From: Acanthochlamys bracteata
Lineage: Eukaryota > Streptophyta > Magnoliopsida > Pandanales > Velloziaceae
Direction: 5' to 3'
Length of the DNA: 64,000 nucleotides
Assembly: GCA_019914995.1 (NCBI GenBank)
Contig: CM034134.1
Location: forward strand, 1,258,145-1,322,144
Shown here: positions 4,303 through 57,600 of the stretch, piece by piece
How positions within the stretch are numbered: the first letter of the stretch is position 1
Layout: each line of letters opens with the position of its first letter
Notes under the pieces: model-generated
What the model was told of the DNA's origin: nothing
Seen by the model: only the letters and a program-made list of their open reading frames with translations
Database searches by the model: none
Position numbers and translations under genes: made by a program

Positions 4303-7300
4303 TTAGACAGAGAGAGTGTGTGGGAACTGAAACGAGCGGGGTTTTATAGTTAGAGAAATTTCTTTTGATTGTTTATCTGATGGACGATTAATTATTTAAT
4401 TAACTAAAGGTTTGAAAATAAACTTTTTAAAGCTTGGTTTAATGAGCATAATTAATTAATTATTTATTGTTATATTTATTGTAACATAGAAAATAATAAT
4501 ATATAACCTTACATGATTATAAGATTATTAGATAACAGAAAACCAAAATTATTTGCATGAGTGGTACCTTTCATTTGGCTTTTGGCAATTGATAACCTAT
4601 CTAACTTGAGAAATATTAATAATATTTCAAGTATCCGCTTTTTTGTGCTTGATTATATGTGGAGTATTTGTATGTCCTTATGCTTCAATTTTTTAAATAA
4701 TTTTTGTACCTTTTTAATAAAATTTTTATATATTTAACAAAAATTAAAAATTTTTTAAAATATAAATAAATAATATATTGTATATTTTTTATACATAAAT
4801 GTTTTGTTACAAAATTTGATATTATCTTTTAAAAAACTTTTTATTCAAAATTTTTTTTTATTTTAAACACTTCAAAACTTCCAAATAATTCTGATTCTGA
4901 ATATGTTCAAATTTTTTAAGTTTGTTCTTACAATTTGAGTAAAAGTTTTACAAATAATTTGCAAAACAGTAGCTCAATTTTGCAAAACTATAAAAAGAAA
5001 AATAAAATTATTAGTAGCTTTGCTGGTTGGAGAGTGGGGAGTGCTGCTGGCGGTCTGAGAACTCTCCACTTTCCAGTTTATTATAGAGAGAAATATTTAA
5101 AAATGTTTTTTAGATAGAATTTATTTAAAACTAAAAATATTTTTTTAATACGAATTTTATTTTTTTGACTTTAAAATAATATAATAAAAAGATTTTTTTA
5201 TAATTTTTAAATAAAATTTTTAAATAACTAAAAAATATATTATAAAACATAATTAAAATAAAAATTAATTTAAATAAATAATATCAAACGCTCTCTCTTT
5301 ATTGAGTGAGATTACCGCTGACCCGCTTTGCCGGTAAGATTACCGCTCGTTCAAAGAATACTACAGCTAGTTCCGAGGCAAACTCGATTGGATCTGTAGA
5401 TTGTCCGAGATTTATCAGCTGCAGATATCCGAACAGGAGATAGGTTTTTCAAGGAATATTAAGCTGCCACGTACCTGCAATGGCCACAAAACACGCTTTC
5501 ATGAGACCGTGTATTATTAAACAGTGATAATATATTGATATTTAGGAAAAACATATACACATGAATTCCTTGGGCTTTTCTCAAAAATTCTTATCAATTT
5601 TTTTAACTTGTATTTTTAATAAATTTTATATAATATTTTTTAAATATATTTTAAAATTCTAAAATATAGAATATTTTGAAGTAAAATTTTATTATTTATT
5701 TTTATTAATTTTTTAAAATAAAAATAAAACTTATTTTTTATTTTTAGAAAAGTATTTTTATAAGTACTCTTAAATACCACCAAATATTTTTCATCGAGAT
5801 AATTTAACTATTTTTAAGTTTACAAATTTAGTTTTGTATAATATAATAGATACAAGAAGTTATATTTATTATCTTAATATATTGAAAGATTTAGAAAATG
5901 TTTGGTGTTGTTTATTTTCTCTTATTTATTTCATTTTAATTTTTTATTTTATATATTTCAATTAATTTTCTAAAACAATCCACAAAATTATTTTAAATTT
6001 TAAAAAATATAAAACAATTCTATTTTATAAGATCTAATTTTTAAAATTTTTAAAAAGATTTTCGTTTCAGAAAATTCTTTTCAATAATCACTATTAAATA
6101 TTTCTTTTAGGTTGGATTAAAGTATCATTTAAAATTGTTTAAAATAAAAATTTTAGTAAGAGTTAAATAAGTAATTTTTTTTAAATTTAAAAAATTAAAC
6201 TTATAATATAATAGTTTATATAAATAATTTATCTATATTTTTTTAATTCTAAATATTGTAAAGAATTCTTGAAAACCAAAACTGAAATTAACATATGTAT
6301 CTGTAAAGGATCCCAAATAATGTCCTAAAAAGATAAACCAGCCTTTGAAAATATCTGTCAAGTAGAAGGGTATTCTAGGTATTTACATACATAAATAAAA
6401 GAGTAGTTCATAAACTGTAGATGTTTTTTTTTTTCACATTATAACTTATTTATTGTAATTAAAAAACAATTTCCAATTAAAAAGAATTAGACAATCCCCT
6501 TTTTTTTTTGAAAAGAAAGCGAACATTGAAACATGCGTGACATACATATTGTCAATCATTTTCATTTACTATAGTTTAACGACTTGAAAACGACCGTAAT
6601 ATAGTTTCCATTCATATATAAATTATTTATTAAACTTGTTATCAACTGAGTTTGTTTTAGAAGTCATTTGAAATTACTTAAAAGTAGATATCTAAAGAAA
6701 CTTTTTCTGAATTTTTTTTGTACTATAAAATATTTTTGAAAATTAAAAACATAAATTAAATAGAGAAGCAATTGAAAATCACTCTCAAACATGTTTAGAA
6801 TTGCTTTTCAACTCTATTTTATTCAAATTTTTATTTGATATTTTTTAATAAATTTTTTATAGCATTCTACAGAATTTTTTTGATAATTTGAAATGCACTG
6901 AATTATCAGTATTTTGCTAAATTTAATTTATAATCGAAAAAAATACAAAAAAATTTATATAGTCGATTTTACGTAAGTATAGTATGATATTGTTATTAAA
7001 ATGTACAGAATTATTCAACATTATAAAATTTTATTATTATTTATTTTTATTATATTTTGAGATAAAAAATATTACTTTTTTAAAATAAATTTTGTTTTGA
7101 AAAATTTACTTTATAAGCGGTTCCCCTTAATATAATCAAATCATCTAGAATTTCGCTTTATATCTAATTCCTTATAAATTAAACTAATCGCTCATTAAGA
7201 TTTAGATTAATATGTTTTCAAAGATAATATATATATATTTTTTTATGAAAAGGTACTGTCGGCAATATTAATATATAATTTTTAATTTATCTATAGGAAA

Positions 7301-28599: not shown

Positions 28600-28760
28600 T
28601 GGTACTTTCACGCACTCCATAGCTATTTTTGGCTTATCTCTAAATTCAATATTTATTGTCAAATATGAAGAATTATAAGATCATAACAAATCGATAAAAT
28701 TTTAACTAAATCAAACCACAAATCGACCTCCATCCAATCATCTGATCAAAATAATATAAA
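28600..28760. mobile_element. Partial arm of a foldback element
   Basis: Matches the left arm of the complete element at 28881-29290: CACGCACTCCATAGC, AAATATGAAGAATTA and AAATCGACCTCCATCCAATC. Only one arm is present, and a TA-rich stretch follows. Confidence 0.6.
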
Positions 28761-28880
28761 TAAAAAAACTCATACATATATATACATATATTTTACAGTA
28801 CTTATAGCACTATTTTTTATTTCAAAAATTTATATTTGTATAATTTTTTAATTCATATATATATATAAAGAATATGAGCA

Positions 28881-29290
28881 CTCTAATTTTTATACACACT
28901 TTAGCACACTTCACAACCATTTGTGGCTGTGGAGACTTTCAAATATAATCTCTATCGTTAGATATGAAAAATCATGAATCGTTAACATGCTAACAAAATT
29001 TTATCAGAATCGGAATATAAATCGACCTCCATCTAGCCACTTGATCAAGATGACTAAAAAAGGAGATATATATATTTTGTTAATTTTTACTCTTTGTGTC
29101 ATCATTATCAAGTGACCAGATGAAGATCTATTCGTAGTCCGATCAAGATGAAATTTTGTCAATATGTTAACAAATCGTAATTCTTCATATCCAACGGTAG
29201 AGATTGGATTTGAAAGTCTCCACGGCCACAAACGGTCGTGAAGTGCGCTGGAGTGTGCATAAAAGTTAAAATATCACTATCCTCTCCATA
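28881..29290. mobile_element. Foldback (long inverted-repeat) MITE
   Basis: The left arm (about 28890-29055) and the right arm (about 29095-29270) are reverse complements with scattered mismatches. The left has TTTGTGGCTGTGGAGACTTT and the right reversed has TTTGTGGCCGTGGAGACTTT. The loop of about 40 bases includes a TA run. No coding capacity. It belongs to the same family as 52406-52820 and 54280-54640. Confidence 0.8.
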
Positions 29291-42959: not shown

Positions 42960-44010
42960 CACAAAGACAAATGACCCCTTGATCACTTTCATTCGACATT
43001 TCTCGAACGAAAATTTTAAATTGGACTTAGAGATTTTCAACCAAATCTCTATGGTTAGATATAAAAAACTATAATTAAAAATATGCCGATAAAATTTCAG
43101 TTCAATTAGATTATAAAAAGACCTCTATTCAATCTTTTTATCAAGATGACAATGCTAATAACAACGATAGGACTTTACTAAAAAATAATTCCAAGATGAC
43201 ATTATTCGAGAACAATTTGAACTGGACCATTCTTTGTCTCAGTTCGAATTCGGTTCAAATTGTTTTCAAATAAGGATCCATATTTGATACTTTCTTATAG
43301 AATATTTTAAAAAAGGAACGTGGAGAGCTCTAAATATAAACTCCACGTTATATATGAAAAATTATGAGTTAAAAATATGTTGTTAAAATTTTATCTCAAT
43401 TGGATTACAAATCGGTCTCCATTTGGCTCTTTATCAAGATAGAAGTAGGAAAATGATAATAGTTGAATAGTGTTCTTATTTGAAAAAAATAAAAAAATGG
43501 CCATTATCCGAAAATAATTAGAACTGGATCTTAACCGAGTTGAGGAATGATTTCAAATTATTTTAAAATAACTGCCATTTTTTGAACTGTTCTCGAATAA
43601 GGATAACTATTTAACTTTTGTTGTTTTATTACTATCATTTTGATCAAGGGTTGGATAAAGATCTATTTCGCGATCTCATTGAGTTAAAAATTTATCAACT
43701 TGTTCAACTTGTATTTTTTGATATTCAATGAGGTAAATTGAATTGGAGCTTTTAAGTTCTTTTTAAAGTTTAATTGGAAAGTGTTGTATATTGATCCTTA
43801 TTTGAAAAATTCGAAGAACGGTCCTTATGCGAAAACAAATTGATATAGATTTGAGCTAAGTCAAAGATAATTCGAATTAGATTTAAACTAAATGGACGTA
43901 ATATTCCAGTTTGAATTGCTTGTTTATAAGGACTACTATTTTTATTGATGTCAACTTGATTAAGAAGGCATATAGAGATTGATTCCTGATCCAAGAGTTG
44001 AAAAATTATG
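42960..44010. mobile_element. Decayed cluster of foldback-family arms
   Basis: Several degenerate arms in both orientations: ATGGTTAGATATAAAAAACT with AAAATTTCAGTTCAATTAGA at about 43050-43120, a second at 43340-43440 and inverted ones at about 43640-43730 and 43970. They share the family order (TTAGATATGAAAAATTATGA, AAATTTTA-CTCAATTGGATTA, CCATTTGG). Intervening text repeats TTCGAACTGG/TTCGAGAACAATTTGAACTGG motifs. Boundaries are uncertain. Confidence 0.5.
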
Positions 44011-50432: not shown

Positions 50433-52820
50433 ATGGCGTGGGGAGAAGATGAAGTGGTTGGGCCGGACATCGCGACAGCGGGGATTCACGTCAGTGAAAG
50501 AATCGGGAAAGAAATTGCCGGGCAGCTTGATCTTGAAGAATCTCTTGAATCTGCTCGTTATGCTAGCCATCCTTACTCCTCCCATCCCAAAGAGGTAAGT
50601 TCTCATTGAATCGATTCAAAAAATTCCTTGAATTTGCCTTGATAAGATTCTCTAGTTGTGTTTTTGCTAGTCTGGATCAAATCAAACTCATAAGTTCTAT
50701 ATTATAGATATACTTTATGCAAAACCAATAGAGGAAGTTCATTGTCGATAGCAAATATGCACGGGCGTAATCAGGATGATTTGCGTCAACAGTTAACTTG
50801 CGTGGTACTTAAAAGAGACGCATTGAAAGGACCTTCATGTGGTCTGTGGCTACATGAGAAAATCACTTTTTTGTGAGGTTTGATTGTTGAAACATCCTAC
50901 GGGATTCTAGAATCGTAATACCATGTGTAAGATTTGGTTCGAAATAAAGCAAGAAGATTGAAAATTTGGGGTTTTTTTCAGTTTTTCATAATCTGTACTG
51001 ATAAGTATTACATCACTAACACTCACAATGATCAAGATTATAGTATCCAAAGCTTGTTGAAAAATGACGACATCCGATGCATGTTGGACTTGACCTGAGC
51101 CCCTCAGCATATGTGAATAAGTTTTGAGTCCATGGAATATATATCTCGTTGTTTTACCTTACTTCTTTACTGTAATATTGAGAATAAACTCTGATTCATG
51201 AAAATAATATCTAAAATATCTGAAAAACTTCGGAGTAATATGCGGATTGCTTCCTCATCTTGCATTACCTTATAATATGATATTTTGTCTTTCAATAGAA
51301 GTACAATACAAGAAGTTGATTTGGTACTTCTTTAACCTTTGATTTTTACCTTTATTTCATAGCTAATTATGAGCTTTCTTATAGTGGCCTGCTGCATTTG
51401 AAGTTGTTGAGACACGGGAGTTACCAGCAGTGCTGATTGAAAGATATAATGCAGCTGGAGGTGAAGGAACAGCATTATGCGGGATATTTCCCCAAATACG
51501 TAGAGCCTGGGCGTCAGTGGACAATACTTTATTTCTTTGGCGATCTGATAAATGGTAGGACTATAACCTGTAGGGTGTTGTTTCTGATTTCCTTTTATTT
51601 TTTGGATACCTTCAAGCATTGTTTTGGGCTACGTAATAAAATCTTGAGCTGGCTTATGGTGTAGAACTTTGGTTCCAAGTGATTAGCTGCTTTTACTCTA
51701 ATGGGCTTTATCTAAGGTGGTATTTGAGAGTGCTTTTCAACTCCTTTTCATTCCAACTTTTTATTTTACATTTTTCAATAAATTTTTAATAATATTTTAT
51801 AAAATTTTAAAAAATTTAGAAAGTACTATACAAAAATATTTTATATTGTAAGATCTTGTTATTATTTATGTTTTTATGTCAAAAAATAAAGCTCATTTAA
51901 AAAAAATTTCTAGATACCTTTTGTTTTAAAAATTTTCTTTTCGAAAAGTACTCTTAAGCATCCAGTAAATACTAAAAGTATTCTCTTTTGCACTTGATTT
52001 AGATGCATGAAATACTCAAGCATTGATTGCACAGGGATTGCCAATGCACTGAGTATAGCGGTGAGGATCAAGCAATTTGTGGTGTAGGACTTGTGAGAGC
52101 TAGGCCTGGAATTTTTGTTGAAGCAATCCAGTATCTTTTAGTGCTAGCCACTCCTATTGAGGTAAGAATTACCAATATTTATTATTATTATTATTATTAT
52201 TAGTATTATCTTAGAGCTTCATCATGGACTTGAATACTTTTTACCTGTTGCTTTAATTATAAACTATTCCTCAAATCAAATGCATTTACTATTCCTTTAT
52301 AGAATTGTGGCTCTTAACTTTTAAGAGAAAATGATGTCTGATTCTGTACTATATCTAGAAGTGTTCTTTCGAAGATTAAATAAACAAATAAAATATATAT
52401 ATGTAGGAGGGATAGGGTACTTTTTTGTTTAAAGGCACTCTTGCGCACTCCAGGCTATTTTTTGCCGTAGAGATTTTCAAATCTAATATTTACCGTTGGA
52501 TATGAAAGATTATGAGTCAGTAGTACGCAGTTAAAATTTTAGCTCAATTGGAACACGAATCGACAATCATTTGGTCACTTGATTAGATGACGCAAAATAG
52601 AAATATATATGTTTTGTCAAATTCTACTATTTGTATCATTATGATCAAATGAACAAATGAAGGTCGATTCGTATTCCGATTAAGTTAAAATTTTGTCAGC
52701 ATGCTACTGACTCATAAATGATCATATCCAACGGTATAGATTAAAGAGGTCTCCACGATCATTTTTGGCCGTAGAGTGCGCGGGAGTGCCTTTAGGAGAG
52801 GGAGTGCCCTTATCCATACC

Positions 52821-52877
<57 letters not shown>

Positions 52878-52915
52878 GTATATGTATATATGTATATACA
52901 TATATATATATGTAC

Positions 52916-52961
<46 letters not shown>

Positions 52962-52990
52962 GTATATATGTATATATATATATATATGTA

Positions 52991-53048
<58 letters not shown>

Positions 53049-53343
53049 TGTACATGTACATGTACATATGTACATGTATGTACATGTACATGTACATATG
53101 TACATGTACATGTACATATGTATGATGTACATGTATATGTACATGTACATATATACATGTACATGTACATGTCATTATGTACATGTACATGTACATATGT
53201 ACATGTACATGTACATATACATACATGTACATGTACATGTACATATGTACATGTACATATATGTACATATATGTATATGTATATATGTATATGTATATCT
53301 ATATATATGTACATGTACATATACATATATGTATATGTACATA

Positions 53344-53404
<61 letters not shown>

Positions 53405-54236
53405 ATAGATCCGAACAAATCGATTCAACCTCATATTCTGAGAAATTATTATTCTTAGAAATATCTTTTACGGTTCCAATGTGGATACCGTAGTGGTCGA
53501 TATCACAGCGTATTATGCTTTTGATCTGAGTGAGACATTCCCTTGCGAAGTGTTTTATCACTATACTATTACAATAATTGTTATAAAACAGAACGTCTAT
53601 CAAGCCACGTTCTCTGACAATAATTGCTATTTTATGTCTGTTACTGCTGTTTGTGATAAGAAGGAATCTCCCATCAGTTCTCTGATTTGATGTTTGGTTC
53701 TAAGGGGTTATTCTCAACCAAGGGGGAAGCCTCATTGACCATAAAATGAAAGACGCTGCCATAGCAAAGATCATTATGAATATACAGTTCATATTCCCAC
53801 AATCGTGAATGTCTCCACAGTATGGAGCTTCTCTTTTAGTAGCGTATCTCATAATACTCATCTTGGACAATGGCGTATTCTCAACTAAGAGGGAAAGCCA
53901 CATATGTATATATATACATAGAAGAAGATATGTGCACATTGCCATCTTAGGACCACATTGATCAATATAAGGTGCGTAGAAGCTCAAATTTGATCACCAC
54001 TGTTGGATATGAAAAATTATGAGTGGTTAACATGCCGACAAAATTTTAGCTCAATCGAATTTTAAGTCGATCTCCATCTGACTTCTTAATCAAGATGACA
54101 AAAAAAAAAAATGTTATGTTTTGCAAATTTTGTTAAATTTCTTAGACATGAGTTGAAATTTTATCAACATATTTTCAACTTATGGTTTTTTATATTCAAC
54201 GGTAAAAATTAGATTATATACGATGGCATGTGCTTC

Positions 54237-54277
<41 letters not shown>

Positions 54278-54638
54278 TAGGGGAGGGATAGGGGCACTCC
54301 CTTTCCGGTTTATGGTCGGGGTGACCTCCAAATCCAATCTTCACCGTTGGATATGAAGAACTATGAGTTAGAAACATATCCATAAAATTTCAGCTCAATC
54401 GGACTACGAATTCACGCCCATCCGGTCACTTGATCAAGATGACATAAAGTAAGAAAACTTAAAAATATATATATATATTGTATTATTTATGTCATCTTGA
54501 TCAAGTGACCGGATGGGCGTGAATTCGTAGTCCGATTGAGCTGAAAATTTTATGGATATGTTTCTAACTCATAGTTCTTCATATCCAACGGTGGAGATTG
54601 AATTTGGAGGTCACCCCGACCATAAATCGGGGAGGGAG

Positions 54639-54669
<31 letters not shown>

Positions 54670-57600
54670 ATACGTATGTGGATACATACGTGTCGATTGC
54701 GGTTCGCTTTAGGTAAAATTTATATAGGGATCTTGATCCATAATTCTTCATACTCAACGGTAGAGATTGAATTTTTGAAACATTTTATGTATAAGATGCT
54801 CCATAGGTTTCCCTAAGGGTAGGAGGTGTCTCCATATATCATCATCATCTTATATTATTATTGTTATTGTTATTGTTCAGGAGACAATGATGTTCATGTA
54901 CTATGATGAAATGCTTGTCTAATTCGTAGTTATGTGTTCTTACATGCATCAAATTGGCTGAATTCATGTACTGTCTTTGCTCGCGGTTTGTATAGTTTGA
55001 GAGCTACATAAACTTTTGACTATTTGTATTCTTTTGTTTCTTCACAACAATGGTTACATGAGGAATAGGATTATGTCTTATACTATTGGTTGTTTTGCGG
55101 CTTTCAAAGTCTTTTGGGACTTTGGAAAGCCCATAAGTTGTGAATCAATATCTAATTATGTCTTTCATCTCTGTCAATTTTGGTCTTAAAGGCTTTAGTT
55201 GTGGCCGTATTTGAAGGGGTATAAGTTCGTGACTAGCCGTCATTCTCTAGCAATATCTCTCTCATTTCCTGTCAGAACCTGAAGTCATTAGACATTGCCA
55301 ACTAAGTATGTCTTTCTTTTTTATCTGAATATCTGAATAGGCCAGGCCATGGATGATGTTGGTCTATACAAAGCCTGACGGTAGAACATTATACATAGCC
55401 TGACGGTAGAACATTATTAACTGGAGATGTGGACCTTTCATCTGGTTCTCGATGACTTAATGCAAATGATTGCTCTAGTTTGTGTCACCAGGTTCTTTGA
55501 TTATTTTGGCAGTACAATAGTTGAAAGAATCTGGAGGTTGCCTTGATAGCTGTATAGTGTAGCTTTAAACTCATCTGAATTTAGTTGAATGGAACATTTT
55601 CATTCATTTGGTTCCCGTTGATGGCATTTAAAAGTGATGTACTACACAGATGCTAAGATCACTCGATATTTCTCTGGCCGGTTGTGGACAGGTTTATATG
55701 GCATCATATAGCTCTTCACAAGTGTTGAAATTTTTCATATTTCTGGTCAAAAAGAATATAATATATAATTAATTTTTCTACGGTGGTAGCTAATTCTCAT
55801 AGGAGTATGCTGCAGCGGAAAAGGGGAAGGGCTAGATCCATATGAGGACATTTGTTTGCAACCCTTGCCAGAATATACTGTACCATCTGATAATGTGACT
55901 ATGACTTGCATTGCCTGTACTGATAAAGGCCGTATCTTCCTTTCTGGCCGTGATGGGCATGTATATGAACTTCAATACTCTAGTGGAGCAGGCTGGAATA
56001 AGCGTTGTCGCAAGGTGTGCCTTACGGCAGGTTTGAGCAGTCTTGTTTCGAGGTATATCACTAAAATATTTCATTCATCTCATTAATTAATGTCTTTTGC
56101 ATGGGTAGCTAACTCTCCTTGTATTCAGGTGGGTCCTTCCAACTGTCTTCAAGTTTGGATCTATTGACCCAATTGTTGACATGGTTGTTGACAATGAAAG
56201 GCACGTACTCTATGCGCGTACAGAAGGAATGAAGTTACAGGCATTTGACCTAGGAGCACAAGGTGATGGGCCCTTTAAAAAAACTGCTGAAGAAAGGAGC
56301 TTGATTGATCCACGGGAGGGACAAGGGGGTAGACGATCTGCTGCAGCTAGAGCAGTTGCTAGAACAACTAAGCCATTTATAGTCGCTATTGCACCATTGT
56401 CGTCTATTGAATCGAAATGGCTGCATCTTGTTGCTGTCCTCTCAGATGGAAGAAGACTGTACCTTTCTACATCACCGCCAAGTGGAAGTGGTTCTGTAGG
56501 GGGTATTAGTGGACTAGGTAATGGATGCCAAAGGCCTTCCTGCTTAAGAGTTGTAGCAACTAGACCTTCCCCTCCATTAGGTGTTGCTGGTGGACTTACT
56601 TTCGGTGCAGTGTCTGCTGTTGCCAGAACTCATCCTGAGGATCTTGCTCTGAAAGTGGAATCAGCTTTTTATTCTGCAGGGACTGTTGTGCTTTCAGATT
56701 GTACATCTCCTACAATGTCCTCCCTTCTATTAGCTAGCAAAGATCCAAGCATGCAACCATCTGTTACTGGTAACATTGCTTCTGCTGCAAGGAGTTCTCT
56801 TGCATTACGCGAATTATTATCATCTTTGCCTATTGAGGGTCGGATGCTCTGTGCTGCTGATGTTTTACCCCTTCCTGATACAGCCATTACTGTACAGTCA
56901 ATGTATGCAGATACAGGGGTTTGTGGTTTTATGTCCCTAATAGAATCATGTGAAAAGGCAACTGCAAGACTTTGGGCCAAAGGCGATTTGTCAATTCAGC
57001 ATATTTTACCTAGGAGAAGGCTTGTTGTCTTCAGTACCATGGGAATGATGGAGATAGCTTTTAATAGGCCTGTGGATATACTGAGAAAGCTTTTGGAATC
57101 AAATGCTCCCAGATCACATATTGAGGACTTCTTTAATCGCTATGGAGCTGGAGAATCTGCTGCTATGTGCTTATTGCTTGCAGCAAAGTTAGCATATGCC
57201 GAAGATGTTTTTATAAGCAATTCAATTGCTGAAAAAGCAGCAGAATTATATGAAGATCCAAGACTTGTTGGAGTGCCCCAACTTGATGGTGTTAGTGGCA
57301 TGCCAAGTACCAGAACTCCTACTGGAGGCTTCAGCATGGGTCAGGTGGTGCAAGAGGCCGAACCTACGTTTTCTGGTGCACATGAGGGTCTCTGTTTGTG
57401 CATGTCAAGGTTGCTATTACCTATATGGGAACTGCCCGTAATGGTTGTGCAGAAGGAGGGCATTTCAGATGCCAGATCTGATGGAGTAGTTACTTGTAGG
57501 CTTCCTCTAGGTGCGATTCATGTTCTTGAAGGAAAGATTCGTTCACTAGAGCAGTTTCTAAGGTCAAGAAGAAACCTAAGACGGGGCCTTTATGGATATG

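Follow-up and report, generated by a model that had tools for sequence, protein, structure and literature searches.

MuTAnT of Medicago truncatula is a 292-bp foldback with 144-bp terminal inverted repeats (TIRs), GGGG/CCCC ends and a 9-nt target-site duplication (TSD); it is flanked by TA microsatellites, counts introns among its insertion sites, is reported in 218 copies and has an autonomous Jittery-like partner (PMC4486113). Micron of rice and TAFT of maize are likewise described as targeting TA microsatellites (PMC4486113). The SaTar elements of guayule and rice are non-autonomous Mutator-like elements (MULEs) found in (TA)n, where they form end-to-end, non-nested arrays; the account of four guayule families gives lengths of 380-425 bp, TIRs of 150-180 bp and a 10-bp TSD (PMC5907723). 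Ac-mMITE of pineapple is described as Mutator-related and flanked by TA microsatellites, with a 9/10-bp TSD, clusters of adjacent insertions, 21,994 full-length copies and a partner that was not found (PMC8449440).

Here we analyse a near-perfect hairpin in a 64,000-nt stretch of the Acanthochlamys bracteata genome, hereafter the window, together with related copies elsewhere in that genome. We consider it very probable that the hairpin is a non-autonomous Mutator-like MITE which inserted into a TA microsatellite of intron 3 of NUP155.

Structure of the hairpin and its host gene

The gene that hosts the hairpin lies on the forward strand. Pfam Nucleoporin_N or Nucleoporin_C domains were found in four of the five exon translations tried, the fifth giving none, and within the nucleoporin family we take the gene to be NUP155, judging by the plant sequence. 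The hairpin lies in the intron that separates the third and fourth coding exons (Table 1), where an earlier note on this DNA, made by reading the sequence, had located it. That note had described a near-perfect hairpin of about 150 bp with a loop of about 37 bases, and the inverted-repeat search recovered just such a structure. Its stem merges two blocks of inverted arms, of 95 nt (95% complementary) and 65 nt (98%). The number of differences between the arms is indeed low, with five substitutions and one gap counted rather than the "about seven" positions given before. Folding of positions 54270-54660, a check of the kind proposed in the same note, yielded a minimum free energy of -286.5 kcal/mol; shuffled sequences averaged -97.7 (sd 5.75; z -32.83), and none of 100 shuffles folded as well.

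Table 1. Positions in the window of the hairpin, its parts, its flanks and its relatives in the host intron.
Feature	Position	Strand	Basis
Palindromic MULE-type MITE (the transposon copy), truncated at its 3' outer end	54280..54639		family alignment
Outer terminal block GGGGAGGGATAGGGGC, mirror copy absent at 3' side	54280..54295	+	aligned ends
5' arm of hairpin	54296..54448	+	inverted-repeat search
Loop, 37 nt, TA-rich, asymmetric, ordinary family type	54449..54485		loop comparison
3' arm of hairpin	54486..54639	-	inverted-repeat search
(TA)17 microsatellite on the left flank, probably belonging to the target	54240..54273		flank reading
Right flanking (TA)6, continuing into TG repeat	54639..54650		flank reading
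Host intron of the element, NUP155 intron 3, with GT..AG borders	52162..55789	+	exon/intron reading
Older decayed hairpin of same family, arms 53985-54104 and 54149-54215	53985..54215		71% and 78% identity to query arm
Older family copy, 419 bp as measured from roughly placed ends	52403..52821		arms 76% and 71% vs query arm
Arm fragment of family, 36 nt	54739..54774	-	83% identity

The hairpin is bordered at its 5' end by a 16-nt outer block that is lost at the 3' end, and the TSD of the window copy itself is unreadable because of this loss. Neither the outer block nor the older family relatives in the intron had been noticed in the earlier reading. Among these relatives, the copy at 52403-52821 has TA runs on both sides, while for the decayed hairpin at 53985-54215 no outer ends were located. 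A TA-rich repeat tract of about 580 bp (52824-53402) adjoins the former, and possibly grew from its TA flank. Other decayed arms of the hairpin family, with 71-79% identity, are also present in the window at 28638-29233 and 43054-43412.

A multicopy family of palindromic elements

A comparison of the element with its own genome (195.5 Mb) returned at least 147 matches, counting the strands of the palindrome separately and with the best 40 of 1588 candidates scored. We retrieved 58 loci, 38 around the best matches and 20 around exact terminus motifs outside those (three further terminus sites were left out of the 20), and these loci and the window together hold 89 family arm pairs. Of the terminus loci, one (L055) has no family arm and three (L048, L058 and L064) have one arm each. 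Genome-wide, the terminus motif occurs with up to two mismatches at 429 sites (212 on the forward and 217 on the reverse strand), two being expected per complete copy, and a reversed-pattern control gave 0. With so many further copies elsewhere in the genome, the window hairpin is essentially ordinary.

For 69 of the 89 arm pairs a 3' outer end could be placed; the window copy belongs to the remainder. Copies with both ends located are foldbacks of 370-427 bp, typically with GGGG/CCCC ends; they comprise arms of about 153 nt plus outer blocks, and lack the length needed to encode a transposase. The left half of the family plan reads (TA)n, GGGGAGGGATAGGGGCACTCCC, an optional second module, the arm and a TA-rich loop of about 33 nt, and the right half mirrors it to end in CCCC-(TA)n; the family end is GGGGAGGGATAGGGGCACT. 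The designation "intronic foldback MITE" used in the earlier note therefore holds for a multicopy palindromic family, and can be refined to a Mutator-like element with a 9-bp TSD and a TA-microsatellite target.

Target site and target-site duplication

TA runs, defined as at least three units, flank both sides of 47 of the 53 copies in which both ends were located, one side of 4 and neither side of 2; a comparable run is found in 2.25% of random 17-nt stretches, against a background taken from window positions 1-50000 alone. Most TSDs are unreadable inside TA repeats. Exact TSDs outside (TA) repeats are found in two of the 53 copies: L046, which lies in ordinary AT-rich non-repeat DNA, has an exact 9-bp TSD (TTTTATAAT), and L040 has another (ATATATGTA; flanks read by eye).

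Eight copies retain GGGG/CCCC ends free of mutation; in these, the best of all lengths from 2 to 13 was 9 bp, with 69 of 72 bases identical and an exact duplication in five of the eight. The match covers 8 of 9 bases in L041, L043 and L062, and L010 has no match. Within TA repeats other odd lengths do nearly as well (7 bp, 51/56; 11 bp, 77/88), whereas even lengths fit badly in the eight clean-ended copies, which excludes duplications of 2, 8 or 10 bp. The target duplication is thus 9 bp wherever it is readable among the copies, and this is a Mutator signature: L046, L040 and the clean-ended copies taken together fall within the 8-11 bp, typically 9 bp, of a MULE MITE.

Clusters of copies

Copies of differing divergence lie in clusters. 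At 23 of 38 loci (30 of 76 sides) the central arms have a further family arm no more than 400 bp away. Family arms cover 16-24% of the nearest 400 bp and 2.5-7.7% of the sequence at 400-1600 bp, compared with 1.2% of window positions 1-50000. NUP155 intron 3 is itself an example, with the copy at 52403-52821, the hairpin at 53985-54215 and the fragment at 54739-54774 beside the young copy. Neighbours appear older partly because the central copies were picked as the best matches to the window copy. A loose motif of end, (TA)n and end is matched 14 times across L009-L068 and the window, in some cases doubtfully. Judged from neighbour arms and this motif, the clusters appear end-to-end and non-nested.

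Age of the window copy and divergence between arms

Among 69 paired hairpins we distinguished 43 young and 24 old copies, and dropped two that were intermediate. In the young copies, with arms pooled unoriented, arm identity is 91.2% within a copy versus 90.7% between copies; in the old copies arms agree at 82.5% within versus 75.2% between copies. A reading of the unoriented pool in which the sources were symmetric was withdrawn, since orienting copies by their loop revealed arm-specific sites: A at site 121 in 5 left versus 35 right arms, T at site 123 in 2 versus 29, and T at site 85 in 0 versus 14. Several subfamilies therefore descend from sources with unequal arms. As these sources were already unequal, arm divergence overstates the time since insertion in such subfamilies, and arm identity alone is no valid clock in a family where copies of several subfamilies inherited their inequality.

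The arms of the window copy carry the family majority state save for five one-arm changes and one both-arm change. Over all sites, its five one-arm changes are the joint fewest, with L034, among the 43 copies. When arm-diagnostic sites are omitted, four changes remain, equal to L021, L040 and L041, and there are fewer in L013 (two) and L031 (three). The window copy is thus among the younger copies, yet not uniquely young. The claim of a recent insertion made in the earlier note stands in this relative sense, as one of the least mutated of 43 copies, but not on the similarity of its arms alone.

Mutation pattern and silencing

In the young arms of 21 copies of two subfamilies, drawn from among L011-L046, the per-site frequency of C-to-T type changes is nine times that of A-to-G type changes. 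They show no excess at CG, the rates being 4.4% at CG, 4.7% at CHG and 5.2% at CHH. Arm pairs have a CG/non-CG ratio of 0.79 in young and 0.77 in old copies; two MULE TIR pairs have ratios of 1.5 and 1.9, on three CG changes each, a number too small for a conclusion. Two other counts were set aside: a 19-fold pooled C-to-T bias, highest at CHH and made with no subfamily correction, was inflated by arm-diagnostic columns, and a count of singletons only was biased in the opposite direction. In pineapple, microsatellite-associated mt-MITEs are described as having less 24-nt siRNA and less methylation than ml-MITEs, labels that we understand from their context (PMC8449440), and this description tempers the expectation of small RNAs from the hairpin.

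Search for an autonomous partner

Of 494 candidate matches to the MULE domain, 150 were scored and listed, several of them in long open frames. No autonomous MULE bounded on both sides by family ends was found among these 150 candidates and the 100 of 429 terminus sites listed, and neither of two retrieved MULE loci near family termini (L067 and L068) is so bounded. In L067, TIRs of about 1.43 kb that are 94.6% identical enclose the coding sequence of a protein with FAR1 and MULE domains. The right end of L067 includes a 111-bp piece of the family end (6795-6905 of the locus), and its left end is of another type; the junction falls at a short shared ACAT, and its pattern has a single mismatch-free occurrence in the genome. 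A relative on C4, judged from pattern positions and the MULE match between them, is bounded on either side by the other end type (GGAGAACG; 7612486, forward; 7618863, reverse). Because the left end of L067 and both C4 ends are of this other type, the family-like right end looks like a local one-sided fusion. As for L068, it was rejected as a partner: its hairpin is a complete neighbour copy beside the MULE.

Alternative explanations

One alternative is a Stowaway (Tc1/mariner) MITE, which would have duplicated TA. Stowaway elements have a characteristic end motif, which an arm starting CTCCCT near TA resembles; here ACTCCCTCC stands at the inner edge of the TIR, GGGAG/TA are the last bases of the window copy, and TA flanks are present. 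However, the family ends lie further out (GGGGAGGGATAGGGG) than this Stowaway-like inner edge, L046 has a 9-bp duplication, and a 2-bp TA duplication is exact in none of the eight clean copies, making a Stowaway origin most unlikely. A functional MIRNA or siRNA hairpin gene, kept near-perfect by selection, would account for a near-perfect 153-bp stem in the intron of a gene, but it would have to be reconciled with the same structure in many copies elsewhere, with arm states that follow the family majority outside the changes counted above, and with 102 Rfam matches in NUP155 intron 3 that all score below the gathering scores of their families; we judge it very unlikely. Perfect-looking palindromes can also arise in assembly, as a general outcome of false inverted duplication. 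We give practically no credence to such an artefact here, since palindromic copies occur by the dozen in differing flanks, with defined ends and with each arm bearing mutations of its own.

A further question is whether the window arms are alike through one arm having been copied over the other, by gene conversion or fold-back repair. At eight arm-diagnostic sites the two arms of the window copy never disagree, and L034 alone matches it in this among the 43 copies. Both-arm identical changes are in slight excess, 82 against 65.4 +/- 7.0 in arm shuffles (16 of 1000, arms unoriented), but the excess drops to 60 of 1000 shuffles without L034, and relatedness is uncontrolled. The loop of the window copy, on the other hand, is of the ordinary asymmetric type, and at sites 121-123 the majority state is present in both arms of six of the 43 copies, the window copy included, so that a plain source lineage suffices. 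We therefore regard arm copying as an unlikely origin for the similarity of the window arms. The gene conversion proposed in the earlier note is not needed, the window differences being one-arm changes and the sole both-arm change being common to two other copies.

Two of the 43 young copies, L034 and L019, have symmetric palindromic loops overwritten by the opposite half, a state hardly achievable by point mutation, and arm copying has thus left its mark in these loops. L034 also has three both-arm changes that are found in both arms of no other copy among the 43. Based on these overwritten loops and on the higher agreement of arms within old copies than between them, we tentatively suggest that the palindrome of the source elements may occasionally be renewed by arm copying through fold-back repair, letting subfamilies drift yet keep matching arms; we hold this as a possibility rather than a probability.

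Relation to known TA-microsatellite MULEs

The reading that we favour for the window hairpin remains a non-autonomous MULE MITE. The element consists almost wholly of two long TIRs; it would be mobilised in trans by a MULE transposase, and repeated insertion into TA runs next to older copies would give rise to the clusters. On this reading, the RNA hairpin of the NUP155 pre-mRNA would be a by-product of the insertion.

The family is a further member of the TA-microsatellite-targeting MULE kind represented by MuTAnT, SaTar and Ac-mMITE. It resembles MuTAnT as published in being a foldback of long, near-identical TIRs with GGGG/CCCC ends, TA flanks, a 9-nt TSD and an intron insertion. It is not part of the MuTAnT sequence family, because its terminal sequence departs from the MuTAnT mask after GGGG: the tirMask given in that paper is GGGGTTTGCTAGAACA, with which the family end does not begin. 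MuTAnT also has its autonomous Jittery-like partner, whereas in Acanthochlamys none with matching ends was found among the MULE candidates and terminus sites listed. The SaTar elements, as described, share the (TA)n target, the end-to-end linkage and the size range. They differ in the 10-bp TSD of the guayule families, compared with 9 bp here, and in arrays that join unrelated families, whereas the neighbours searched for here belong to one family (with one hairpin beside a MULE, in L068). Ac-mMITE is alike in target, TSD, clustering and missing partner, and Micron and TAFT in TA-microsatellite targeting, all three likened by description and not by sequence.

Overall, a further sequence family joins the published MULE-derived elements that land in TA microsatellites. 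Given that its sources carried arm-specific differences, arm identity in such palindromes should not alone be used to date insertions.
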